In this document: positions 1 through 17,693 of the stretch, piece after piece
Layout of the letters: the number at the start of each line of letters is the position of its first letter
How positions within the stretch are numbered: the stretch's first letter is position 1
NCBI GenBank assembly: GCA_021817605.1
Contig: JAKAUN010000016.1
Coordinates: 1 to 58,183, forward strand
DNA: 58,183 bases
Reading direction: 5' to 3'
Source of the DNA: Thermoplasmata archaeon
GTDB taxonomy: Archaea; Thermoplasmatota; Thermoplasmata; Lutacidiplasmatales; UBA184
The notes under the pieces: model-generated
Database searches by the model: none
Told to the model about the DNA's origin: nothing
Seen by the model: only the letters and a program-made list of their open reading frames with translations
Program-made: the position numbers and the translations under genes

Positions 1-324
1 GTTCCGATTCGGTGATCGGTGGATCACAGGTTCCTTGCGCCTACCCACCGCTTATCGCAGCTTGGCACGACCTTCATCGGCGCCCGAGCCCAGCCATTCC
101 CCAACTGACAGGAGTCAGCTACACTGATTACGCTTGACAAGCGTCCAGAACGCGTGTGATTGGCGTCATCGGCCCCCTCGCCGGCACGGCGAAGGGACCC
201 TCGCCCTTCCCCGGAGAGGCCCCGGCCTCTGCGGGTGCATATGCCGACCGAACAGCAGCGCCGTGGCGCGGCCTTACTGCCAATGGGGTTTGCTATTAAG
301 CCGTTTCGTTCGGTCGGGCCGACC
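1..324. other. No gene recognised
   Basis: Open frames exist on both strands, but their translations are Arg/Pro/Ser-rich and look like chance frames in GC-rich DNA. I see no tRNA, no clear TATA box leading to a start, and no long repeat. The stretch lies downstream of the minus-strand nuclease gene that follows and may hold its 3' untranslated region or part of a gene cut by the window edge. Confidence 0.5.
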
Positions 325-4045: not shown

Positions 4046-4121
4046 TGGGCCCGGACGGATTTGAACCGTCGACCGACCGGTTATGAGCCGGTCGCTCTAA
4101 GCCGGGCTAAGCTACGGGCCC
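4046..4121 (-). tRNA. tRNA with CAT anticodon, probably tRNA-Ile2
   Basis: 76 nt without encoded CCA. Acceptor GGGCCCG pairs with CGGGCCC, discriminator A. The anticodon stem ACCGG/CCGGT closes loop CTCATAA, giving anticodon CAT. The GGGCCCG acceptor and the A37-A38 loop resemble archaeal tRNA-Ile2, whose C34 is changed to agmatidine to read AUA; elongator tRNA-Met is the alternative. No intron. The gene is 25 nt downstream of tRNA-Asn on the same strand, so the two are probably transcribed together. Confidence 0.93.
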
Positions 4122-4146: not shown

Positions 4147-4250
4147 CGCCGCCGAGCGGAGTTTGGGGTCCGCGGCGTTCGGCCGCGGACCTTTCGAACC
4201 GCTGATCTTTCGGTTAACAGCCGATCGCTCTGCCACTGAGCTACGGCGGC
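4147..4250 (-). tRNA. tRNA-Asn (GTT) interrupted by an intron in the T-loop
   Basis: A continuous reading gives a broken T-arm. If 32 nt are removed, a normal tRNA-Asn results. Acceptor GCCGCCG pairs with CGGCGGC, discriminator G. The D-stem is GCTC/GAGC and the anticodon loop CTGTTAA gives GTT. The T-stem AGCGG pairs with CCGCT and the T-loop becomes TTCGAAT. The only flaw is an A-A mismatch at 27-43. The mature RNA would be 72 nt. The intron lies between positions 59 and 60, a non-canonical site that requires the splicing endonuclease to act on the T-arm. Confidence 0.9.
4161..4192 (-). other. 32-nt tRNA-Asn T-loop intron with bulge-helix-bulge
   Basis: Reading the minus strand, the T-stem GCGG/CCGC is the outer helix. 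A central 4-bp helix forms between exon TTCG and intron CCAA, with one C-C mismatch. Two 3-nt bulges follow, AAA on the 5' side and ACT on the 3' side. The inner helix is a 9-bp intron hairpin, GGTCCGCGG with CCGCGGACC, closed by a 7-nt loop. Cutting each bulge after its second base leaves exactly the T-loop TTCGAAT. Boundaries therefore follow from the archaeal splicing rule. Confidence 0.85.
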
Positions 4251-4276: not shown

Positions 4277-4669
4277 CTAATAGCCTTTCCGGCCCGCGGT
4301 GGTGCGGTGCTCGTGCTCGACCACCCGTGCCTTGAGGTGCTGGATGAGCTCGCTCATGCGCGCCAGCGAGCTATCGAGCGAAGACCAGAATTCCTGGGCG
4401 CGGTCGGTCACCACGGCCCCGTCGGCCGAGGGCTGAATGACCCCCTCGCGCTCGAGGAGGTGGAGCGAGTAGCGCGTCTTGTGGATCGGGAGATGGAGCG
4501 CCTCGCTCAGCCGGATGATCCCAATCGGAGGGCTGCTCGAGAGCTTCTCCAGGATATCGACGTTGCGGGCAAGAAGCTCGAGCTCCTGCTCAATCCGCTC
4601 CGCGAGCGCAGCGGTGTCTCCGAGAGGTTCCGCCTCGGGTTCCGTCGTGGGCCCGCGTGCTGGCGGCAT
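4277..4669 (-). CDS. Winged-helix transcriptional regulator
   Basis: 130 aa. Residues about 35-95 (ILEKLSSSPPIGIIRLSEAL... TRYSLHLLEREGVI) read as a winged helix-turn-helix: a helix, a turn, a recognition helix, then a two-strand wing with VTDRAQEF. A C-terminal helix (SLARMSELIQHLKARV) could make a dimerising coiled coil. The N-terminal 20 residues are Pro/Glu-rich and probably disordered. It is transcribed away from the glycosyltransferase at 4816 and could regulate that locus, but the sequence shows no operator. A TATA-like element (RC of ggcttacttg) lies about 24 nt upstream. Confidence 0.75.
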   Translation of the reverse strand: MPPARGPTTEPEAEPLGDTAALAERIEQELELLARNVDILEKLSSSPPIGIIRLSEALHLPIHKTRYSLHLLEREGVIQPSADGAVVTDRAQEFWSSLDSSLARMSELIQHLKARVVEHEHRTTAGRKGY

Positions 4670-11040: not shown

Positions 11041-11066
11041 ATATGTCCCGTAATTACGGGTCATAT
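11041..11066. repeat. 26-bp near-perfect palindrome at the transposase start
   Basis: The core CCCGTAATTACGGG (11047-11060) is a perfect 14-bp palindrome. It extends on both sides as ATATG-T and T-CATAT to 26 bp with a single mismatched pair. It overlaps the transposase ATG at 11065 and the TATA-like element for the divergent small gene. It could be an operator controlling both genes, or the inner part of the left transposon end. Confidence 0.7.
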
Positions 11067-12654
11067 GGCCTTTCGGGAGGTCTACCGCAAGGGGCGTCAT
11101 CACTACCTCTACGAGCGGGAGTCCTACTGGGACCCCAAGCTCCGCAAGGTCCGCAAGCGCACCCTGCGCTACCTGGGACCCTGCGACGCCCGCGGTCGAT
11201 TGCGAGCACCGCCCTCGGTTCGGGTTGACTCGCTTCACTCCTCCTTCCCGGTCGGACCCCTCGCCGTGCTCTACGCCGCCGCCCGGGACCTCCACGTGGT
11301 TGACCGCGTCGAGGAGGTGCTCGAGGTCGAGCGTTCGGAGGCGAGCCTGCTCCTTTCCCTCGCCCTCAGCCAGGCGATCCATCGACTCCCGTTGAGCCGC
11401 GTCCCGGACTGGATCGTCCGTAGTCCTCTACCGCGATGGGAAGCTTTCGATCCCGCCGGTATCGATCGCGCGGTGCTCGACACCGCGCTCGGGCGGCTTT
11501 CCCGCCTCCTCCCGACCCGCGACTGGGACCATCGCGGCTTCGACCTCCAGCGCGTGCTGACCCGAAGCTGGCGCAACGGCTCCCGAGAGCCGGCGACCTG
11601 CTACTACGACATCACCAAGCAGGCGTACTACGGCACGGAGTGTCCGTGGGCCGAGGTGGGGCATGACCCCGCGATCGGCGCGATTGGTTCCGTGGTTGGG
11701 TTCGGGATGGTCGTATCCCGCGACCACCACCACCCCGTTCTCTGTCGCCCGCTCCCGGTGTCGCAGAGCGACTCGGTCTCGTTGGCGACCACGCTCGAGA
11801 TGCTCCGGGGGTTCGGGCTGGGGTCGATCACGCTGGTCGTCAACCGAGGGATCGTCTCGAGGGAGAACGTCACACGCGTGGTCGGGGCCGGCCATCACCT
11901 CCTCGGCATGGTCCGGGGCTGGACGGAGGAGACCCGACGGTATGCCACGCGGTGGACCGAGGAAGGGCTGGAGCGACCGGAGCACGTGGTGGCCCGGTCC
12001 CACGGCAACGCGGCCTATGCCCGAGGGTTCACGGCGCCGCTGTTCGGGCAGCCGAAGGTCCGGGTCGTGGTGGTCTCGGATGCTCGGCGTCGGGTCGAGG
12101 AGCGGCAGAGTCGGGACCTGTTGGTCCAGGAACTGACCGGACACCCTCCTCGGGGTCGCCTGGGCGAGATTCGACACGAGCTGGGACGGGTCGCGGTGCC
12201 CTCCGTGGGCCGCCGAGGGTTTCGGGTCGACCGGGTCGCCCTCGAACGAGAGCGGAAGCTCGACGGGCGGTTCCTCCTGTTCCACACGGACCCCACGGTC
12301 CCGGCGGCCGAGGTGTTTCGGACCTACTTCCAGAAGGATGCGATCGAGAAGGTGTTTCGGACGGCGATGGGACCGCTGTCGCTCGGGCCCCTGCGCTACC
12401 GCCGTCGGGATCGGATCGAGGCGTATGCGACAGTGGTCTATCTGGCGTATCTGCTGTGGAGCTGGTCGCAGCGGAAGCTCGAGTCGAAATACCCGGGGCG
12501 GACGCTGGAGGAGGCGTTCCACACTCTCGGAGAAGTGGCGTGGATCCGGTTTGGGGCGGGGAAATCGGTTCGCGAATGGACGACTCGGCTCACGGAAGAG
12601 CAAGCCGGCCTGCTCTCCGCTCTCGGAGCGATGCCCTACCTACCCGTCCCGTAA
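11065..12654 (+). mobile_element. IS1634/IS4-like DDE transposase with Asn at the second acidic site
   Basis: 529 aa, full length for the family. The first acidic residue is in CYYDITKQAYYG, and the third, Glu, in YFQKDAIEKVFRTA, matching the YxxR/E region of IS4-type transposases. The second site, normally VADRG or VDRG, reads LVVNRGIVSREN: a single G-to-A change in the codon would turn Asp into Asn. No clear terminal inverted repeats were found by eye; a strong palindrome lies just before the ATG. The protein is otherwise intact, so either the change is recent and inactivating, or the catalytic Asp is elsewhere. Confidence 0.85.
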
Positions 12655-15763: not shown

Positions 15764-15777
15764 CAATTTGGTATGGG
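15764..15777 (+). repeat. 14-bp direct repeat, copy 2, at the tRNA-Val 3' end
   Basis: Same 14 bp as 13635-13648. Four of its bases (TGGG) are the discriminator and last three acceptor bases of tRNA-Val; the other ten lie just downstream of the tRNA. The arrangement fits a short integration core at a tRNA gene that stays intact. Confidence 0.6.
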
Positions 15778-15846
15778 CCGGGGCGGATTCGAACCGCCGA
15801 CCTCCGCGTTGTAAGCGCGGCATCTTCACCCCTCGACTACCGGCCC
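15774..15846 (-). tRNA. tRNA-Val (TAC)
   Basis: 73 nt, no intron, no encoded CCA. Acceptor GGGCCGG pairs with CCGGCCC, discriminator A. The anticodon stem CCGCG/CGCGG closes loop CTTACAA, giving TAC (Val). T-arm GGCGG-TTCGAAT-CCGCC is regular. The 5' ten bases are also the last codons and stop of arcS on the same strand, so both must be made from one transcript or from overlapping promoters. Confidence 0.95.
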
Positions 15847-17693
15847 GTCATGTCCGAAGGCGGCTCGTCGGTCTTGTCGCTGTCGGCCGGCGGGTGTCGG
15901 TGATGGCGGACCTTCACCGCAACGCCACGGCGGAGCTCGGTCATCAACCTGCCCGGTAGCGCGGCCTCTCCTACCGCCGCGAGCCTTCCGTCCTGGAAGA
16001 TGCCCACCGAGTCCCCTGCGCGGATGGCGGGTTCCGCCGCGCGGACACCGGGGGCGAACAGGTCACCCTGGAGCGAGATGGCGGAATCGGCGTCGACGCG
16101 GAGAACCGTTTCCCCGAGGCGCACTGCGCCCGCCAATGTGAGATGGAGCAGCCCCCGTTCCTCACGGACCGTCGCGAGGTCGTGATGCCCGTCGGTCAGC
16201 CGCAGGAACCACGGCCGGCCGACGAGCCGGACGGGCGCGGTCATCAGTCTCTCGGCGGCCGCTGCCCCGAGCTGGAAGGTCACCAGGGAACGGAACTCCT
16301 CGAGCCACATCGCGCGGGGGCCCGGGCCCGGCTCGGGCAGCTGCGCAAGGATCCTCCCCAGCTCGGCGCGAAGACGAGCGAGCGCCGCAGCCGCCGTCGC
16401 GCGATGGTCGTCCACGGTCCCCACCATCTCGATCCCTTTCGGGAGCGCCTCCCGGAGGAATCGGTATTCCACCGGGTCGAGATGGAGCACCACGGTCCCG
16501 TAGTGGCCCTGAGCCAGGAGCCGTGAGAGCCCGTCGGTCACGTACGTCTGCTCGAGGGCGGACCAGTCCCCGGTGACCGGCACGTCGTAGTGGCGCGCCG
16601 GCGGTACGTCCTCGAGCTCGCGAGGGACAACTCCGAGCGGCGAGCTCACCGATACCGTGTGCACGCGCTCGACCCCTCGGAGACCCTCGAGGGCGCGGGC
16701 GAAGCGTCGGTGCGAGGGAGAGACGCGATACGGTTTGGTCCGAGAACACGGGACGAGCAGCAGGACCGCCTTGGACGGCGGAGGCAGGTAGCGGTCCCGC
16801 ATCCGTGCGCGGAAGCGCTCCATCTCCGGCCGCCGGTGCGACTCAGTGAGGACGTAGGTGTGCCGGACCGTGCCCGTGACGGGGGCCCGTTCGTCGAGAA
16901 GGTCGGCAAGCCCGCGATCGGCGTAGCGCAGGTGTTCGGCATTCGCCGGCTCCGAAATCAGCCGTGCCTCCACGAGCTCGCGCAGCGTGCCCCGTCGGAG
17001 CGCGTCCCGGGTCTCCTCGAGCGCACGACGGTAGGTGTTCCGGGCGTGGTCGACGAGGCTCCCGGGGGTCGCGCCGCAACAGGCGGGACAGTCGCAGGCG
17101 GGCCGCGGATCGCCCTCCCCGATCGTCAGGGAACCCTGCGTGAGGTCGAGGAAGGCGCCGGAGGAGGCGCGCAGCAGCCCCTCGGTCATGTCGAGGAGAT
17201 CGACCCCCAGGTAGGCGAGCAGCGCGACCCGGTGCGGCAGGGCGACCCGGGGTGCCCAGATCAGAGGTTCGGCACCGACGTGCTCCCGCAACGAACGGAG
17301 CGCCGTGACGAGGGGCTCCCCCTCGTTCCAGAGCGCGCGGGCGTTGCCGAGCACGAGAAGCTCGGGCGGCGTGGCACGTAGATTCGCGAGCGCCTCGGTC
17401 GAGGCGGGAGCGTGGACGAAAACCGCCTTTGGGTCGGGAGTCGGCACGACCCCTGTTCCCGGCGGGATGACCTCCGGGGCGAGAACGGGCAGGCGGAGCT
17501 CCCAGGTCTCGGGCGGATGGCCCAACACAAGGTGACGTTCTCCCGGGACGGACGCCACGCTGGCCAGGCTCGGGCCGAGCGGTTCGGCCGCCGTGCCGGT
17601 GGGGTCGAGTACCGCAGGCGTCCGCAATCGGACCGGCCCGGCCGACGCTTCCCCGAGGATCGCCAGGCCCTCGAGCCGCTCGGTGACGCGCAT
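15837..17693 (-). CDS. arcS: Archaeosine synthase ArcS
   Basis: 618 aa. ArcS (also TgtA2) converts preQ0 at position 15 of archaeal tRNA to archaeosine or its lysine adduct. Key features are the Cys cluster CDCPACC at about 200-206, the ArcS-specific PCSRTKPY (315-322) followed by SPSHRRF, and a C-terminal PUA-like RNA-binding domain (VRLGETVLRVDADSA, GDSVGIFQDGRLAAVGEA). TGT-like N-terminal half aligns with LGNARALWNE and VDLLDMTEG. The last codons ATG ACG GGC CGG TAG extend 10 nt into tRNA-Val. Tail after the PUA is short and charged. Confidence 0.92.
   Translation of the reverse strand: MRVTERLEGLAILGEASAGPVRLRTPAVLDPTGTAAEPLGPSLASVASVPGERHLVLGHPPETWELRLPVLAPEVIPPGTGVVPTPDPKAVFVHAPASTEALANLRATPPELLVLGNARALWNEGEPLVTALRSLREHVGAEPLIWAPRVALPHRVALLAYLGVDLLDMTEGLLRASSGAFLDLTQGSLTIGEGDPRPACDCPACCGATPGSLVDHARNTYRRALEETRDALRRGTLRELVEARLISEPANAEHLRYADRGLADLLDERAPVTGTVRHTYVLTESHRRPEMERFRARMRDRYLPPPSKAVLLLVPCSRTKPYRVSPSHRRFARALEGLRGVERVHTVSVSSPLGVVPRELEDVPPARHYDVPVTGDWSALEQTYVTDGLSRLLAQGHYGTVVLHLDPVEYRFLREALPKGIEMVGTVDDHRATAAAALARLRAELGRILAQLPEPGPGPRAMWLEEFRSLVTFQLGAAAAERLMTAPVRLVGRPWFLRLTDGHHDLATVREERGLLHLTLAGAVRLGETVLRVDADSAISLQGDLFAPGVRAAEPAIRAGDSVGIFQDGRLAAVGEAALPGRLMTELRRGVAVKVRHHRHPPADSDKTDEPPSDMTGR

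Follow-up and report, generated by a model that had tools for sequence, protein, structure and literature searches.

This locus raises the question of whether a 32-nt insert within the T-loop of a tRNA-Asn gene is an intron, and if so what kind of enzyme would take it out. The original prediction, made from the letters of the DNA, placed the insert between tRNA positions 59 and 60 within a bulge-helix-bulge (BHB) motif, and the gene, the insert and its boundaries are as it described (coordinates in the Table, given for the window, which is the whole 58,183-nucleotide stretch analysed). The minus strand of 4147-4250 reads GCCGCCG TA GCTC AGTGGCA GAGC G ATCGG CTGTTAA CCGAA AGATC AGCGG TTCGAA (32 nt) T CCGCT CGGCGGC G, and splicing in silico gives a canonical 72-nt tRNA with a full cloverleaf in which the T-loop consensus UUCRAAU is exactly regained. 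The interrupted gene matches Rfam RF00005 at 35.5 bits only, and ARAGORN makes no call at 4147-4250. A second, intact tRNA-Asn, which would have counted against the prediction, was looked for by running the spliced sequence against the 1.75 Mb genome, which is rated 100% complete, and none was found; the plasmid search gave only ordinary bacterial tRNA-like matches. Judged from sequence, we put at about 0.93 the probability that the locus is the functional and sole tRNA-Asn gene of this genome, carrying a 32-nt BHB intron at 59/60.

Table. Features of the tRNA-Asn locus and its surroundings, in window coordinates
Feature	Position	Strand	Evidence
tRNA-Asn(GUU) gene with intron, 104 nt; mature form 72 nt without CCA	4147..4250	-	RF00005 match; cloverleaf once spliced
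5' exon, tRNA positions 1-59	4193..4250	-	100% over query 1-58 in own genome
32-nt intron between positions 59 and 60	4161..4192	-	T-loop uninterrupted in 14 other families
3' exon, positions 60-73	4147..4160	-	
T-stem 5' strand, BHB outer helix, pairing with 4155-4159	4199..4203	-	covariation helix 1
U54U55C56G57 of the T-loop, central helix 5' strand	4195..4198	-	
5' bulge AAA, predicted cut after the second A	4192..4194	-	sequence; rule of 3-nt bulges
Intron hairpin 5' strand, 10 bp in the minimum-energy fold	4182..4191	-	
Intron hairpin 3' strand	4167..4176	-	
CCAA, central helix 3' strand, C.C mismatch with C56	4163..4166	-	
3' bulge ACU, predicted cut after C, U becoming position 60	4160..4162	-	sequence
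GGAAAGGCTATTA, BRE/TATA-like element 28-40 nt upstream of tRNA-Asn	4278..4290	-	conserved among 83 upstream regions
tRNA-Met(CAT), intron-less, directly downstream of tRNA-Asn	4046..4121	-	

Details of the BHB needed some revision, in that the outer helix is the entire 5-bp T-stem and not four base pairs, and the intron hairpin of the minimum-energy fold has 10 bp (with a 5-nt loop) and not nine, while the bulges AAA and ACU and the single central mismatch stand. The central helix UUCG/CCAA thus has three of four pairs plus the C.C; it is absent from the isolated minimum-energy fold, in which a 7x7 internal loop takes its place between a formed T-stem and a formed hairpin. Across 81 tRNA-Asn genes the central helix has all four pairs in 28, three in 42 and two in 11, and the C.C recurs at the same place in 31 of the 81, and therefore an EndA that tolerates C.C is needed. 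Position 57 and its partner covary, G57 being opposite C in 57 genes and A57 opposite either G (13 genes) or U (5 genes), and in some of the A57 relatives the cut site could move by one nucleotide.

To survey relatives, 106 genomes from the order were searched and the loci were then read. The tRNA-Asn insert lies at the identical place in more than 80 species from six of the family's seven genera, and is present in every relative with a readable tRNA-Asn, the seventh genus (g3) not being among those read. In most relatives the part of the 5' exon covering query 1-58 matches at 86-98%, and the intron varies from 28 to 35 nt and is divergent in sequence. Structure has been kept despite this drift: among 41 distinct 32-nt introns, two-sided changes are seen in eight of the nine modelled hairpin pairs, and 87.8% of hairpin cells are paired versus 77.5% with shuffled 3' letters and 40-52% with slid partners. 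A chance origin of the insert was rejected on the strength of this covariation above controls and the common site in more than 80 species, together with an intron pairing reached by none of 200,000 shuffles of the intron and a precursor fold 4.1 sd better than dinucleotide shuffles (z = -4.1).

Further out, 12 other families belonging to the class or the phylum have an intron-free tRNA-Asn, and in two more (f24 and f3) the intron of tRNA-Asn is elsewhere in the gene with the T-loop intact, as the spliced form predicts. Within the same order, family f3 (G002, G003) has a tRNA-Asn intron at 37/38 only, and in family f2 (G001) the gene has two introns, one at 37/38 and a short one, about 14 nt long, in the T-loop. 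The tRNA-Asn intron may have gone from a short BHL-like form, as in f2, to the hairpin form of the present family (f1), or else have been gained separately.

Could the mature tRNA instead keep the insert, as a hairpin that extends the T-loop? Even unspliced, the precursor does form its T-stem and a stable hairpin, but removal of the insert restores UUCRAAU to the letter, 14 other families have the T-loop uninterrupted, the intron tail complementary to the T-loop is conserved, and sister families carry a 37/38 intron in tRNA-Asn, with EndA and RtcB both encoded in the genome; retention seems very improbable. A pseudogene or disrupted copy, the asparagine codons being read by another tRNA, might be argued from the missing ARAGORN call, yet is scarcely credible given a genome rated complete that holds no other tRNA-Asn, and exons and promoter element conserved in more than 80 species.

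In 82 of the 90 loci examined, tRNA-Met is the neighbour of tRNA-Asn. At the contig edge the minus strand of window positions 1-125 holds the 5' end of an archaeal 23S rRNA, and no 16S rRNA lies within the window, which suggests unlinked rRNA genes. An IS1634-family transposase gene (NCBIfam NF033559) occupies 11065-12654, and at 15774-17693 on the minus strand a tRNA-Val directly adjoins an ArcS-like gene (archaeosine synthase subunit alpha, 383 bits, under the family cut-off of 440).

The interrupted tRNA-Asn is one of many in this genome. Thirteen further tRNAs have 59/60 introns of 26-38 nt, making 14 with Asn: Arg(TCT), Arg(TCG), Glu(CTC), Ser(GCT), Ser(GGA), Ser(CGA), Gln(CTG), Ala(GGC), Gly(TCC), Asp(GTC), Lys(TTT), His(GTG) and Leu(TAG). 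D-loop introns are found in four tRNAs, the initiator Met, Arg(GCG), Lys(TTT) and Leu(TAG) (G000 loci L021, L033, L043 and L035, on contigs C11 and C12), so that Lys(TTT) and Leu(TAG) have D-loop and T-loop introns both, and four introns are canonical (Trp, Tyr, Leu-TAA and one CAT tRNA). In total at least one intron, mostly in the T-loop, interrupts 20 of the 43 tRNA genes found (about 47%), these counts being lower bounds from tRNA-model matches and the D-loop boundaries having been set by eye. Since a general tRNA model scores such genes low and ARAGORN misses the tRNA-Asn, metagenome-assembled genomes of this clade may seem short of essential tRNAs.

Most of the 59/60 introns end in GAA(A)(A/C) before the U and pair through this tail with the T-loop UUC, the non-Asn tail being NGAAA(A/C) followed by U. 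In the 46 non-Asn T-loop introns C56 is opposite G in 45, and R57 is opposite either its Watson-Crick partner or a purine (A.G or G.A) in all 46, suggesting that a purine-purine pair is tolerated at this end of the central helix; all four central pairs are present in 24. The conserved T-loop thus gives half of each predicted splice site.

Introns of this kind extend beyond the genome. In another genus G023 has them in 13 of the same 14 tRNAs, and the intron sets common to genera suggest mostly vertical inheritance, as judged from sequence, since the family ancestor. T-loop introns occur in G002 and G001 too, in the latter down to 13-15 nt and BHL-like (short ones at loci L207-L209 and L280), and none was seen in the loci examined of G396. 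The Arg(GCG) D-loop intron is common to the present genome, G023 and G001. When 395 genomes were screened by pattern, with the reversed pattern as control, about 10 matches versus mostly 0-1 in the control were seen throughout the family, along with a weaker excess in the two sister families and an excess also in the distant family f29; the screen is indicative only, and the small excess outside the order and f29 may include ordinary tRNAs. In f29, which belongs to another class of the phylum, genome G199 (L243-L255) has 11 isoacceptors with T-loop introns of 18-42 nt, most of which have GAAAA before the U, and this expansion was apparently independent.

As to the enzyme, the genome encodes a single EndA of 353 aa and a single RtcB ligase. 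The EndA has two int_endo units in one chain with its catalytic Y292, H300 and K331 invariant and in the C-terminal unit, which makes it a two-domain alpha'2 enzyme on the EndA type check that the original prediction had called for. Its AlphaFold model (pLDDT 94) most resembles the fusion enzyme of M. kandleri and the alpha'2 enzyme of A. fulgidus. Compared with M. jannaschii and A. fulgidus EndA it lacks any insertion ahead of the LSLIE strand, at the CSL/ASL site, as that site is taken from A. pernix and ARMAN-2 with the ASL located from the phmmer alignment start, and so the Lys-bearing loop there that would mark a broad-specificity EndA is missing. Every genome in the order has one EndA gene, the f29 genomes have two-unit EndAs as well, and a genome of the same class has an EndA of 289 aa, as long as the T. 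acidophilum chain. For the thermosome, too, the best PDB matches come from Thermoplasma acidophilum, in agreement with the predicted euryarchaeal-type genome and pointing to a probably Thermoplasmata-like host lineage; the 23S gene with no linked 16S in the window was also used in placing the lineage.

The endonuclease of relaxed site choice that had been anticipated is therefore only partly borne out: an imperfect central helix must be tolerated by EndA, but the enzyme is an ordinary alpha'2 without CSL or ASL. That a specialised CSL/ASL-type EndA or another nuclease makes the cuts, and not the plain alpha'2, would accommodate both the imperfect central helix in 53 of the 81 tRNA-Asn genes and the BHL-like introns of 13-15 nt in the sister family. 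It is nevertheless improbable, given that each genome in the order has a single EndA gene, that the fold is nearest to those of M. kandleri and A. fulgidus EndA and that the CSL/ASL site holds no insertion; one group moreover reports that homodimeric EndAs also cut BHL-like motifs (PMC8707768), which fits the data here.

Cutting of the intron by the plain alpha'2 enzyme would likely be standard EndA/RtcB splicing at an unusual position, and the 59/60 position itself calls for no special enzyme, since it is the motif that EndA recognises. In the precursor U54-R57 of the T-loop would pair with the intron tail (GAA in most introns, CCAA here), leaving a 5' 3-nt bulge of A58, A59 and the first intron base and a 3' 3-nt bulge of the last two intron bases and U60. 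Homodimeric EndA would then cut both bulges and RtcB would join the exons, and probably circularise the intron, splicing presumably coming before T-loop modification and folding of the elbow. Nearly every archaeal tRNA carries a UUCRA T-loop. With this near-universal sequence as the 5' half-motif only the tail would have to match, and therefore one position may recur across tRNAs. We lean to the wider view that the T-loop is a standard intron site across the order, and probably independently so in a family of another class, built from the UUCRA half-motif and a short GAA-containing tail (minimal introns being 13-15 nt) and cut by a loopless homodimeric EndA, which would break the link between EndA type and intron diversity.

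A search of the open-licence literature found no account of T-loop introns for this group. Non-canonical archaeal BHB introns, including those at 59/60, are mostly known from Crenarchaeota and Thaumarchaeota (PMC4090602, PMC8450103), and the present ones are like them in position and size and, as predicted, in BHB architecture and the EndA plus RtcB route. They differ in having a euryarchaeal-type host and an alpha'2 EndA without CSL/ASL, and in that non-canonical introns lie chiefly in the T-loop, in 14 tRNAs and mostly with a common GAA-containing tail. The permuted tRNAs of Thermofilum pendens and Cyanidioschyzon merolae are joined at 59/60 (PMC3218864), and so have the same T-loop junction, whereas here the exon order is normal and the intron short. 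Atabeyarchaeia and Freyarchaeia, which are Asgard archaea and so of a different phylum, also have many non-canonical introns outside the Crenarchaeota, with 92-95% of tRNA genes interrupted (PMC11291895) in comparison to about 47% (20/43) here.

Intron diversity has been held to track heterotetrameric or loop-bearing EndA, and tRNA introns to be few and canonically placed in Euryarchaeota with alpha4 or alpha'2 EndA (PMC4090602, PMC6379350, PMC4033280). The Thermoplasmata-like order is an exception to this published rule, which links non-canonical introns mainly to heterotetrameric or loop-bearing enzymes, and the rule of enzyme-intron co-evolution becomes testable here with one recombinant protein and one transcript. 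The A. fulgidus and T. acidophilum alpha'2 EndAs (PDB 1RLV/2GJW and 2OHC) have the same two-domain chain with C-terminal Y/H/K and are classed as narrow (PMC6379350); the present EndA is about 50-60 residues longer and, unlike those narrow-classed enzymes, is encoded in genomes with many T-loop introns.
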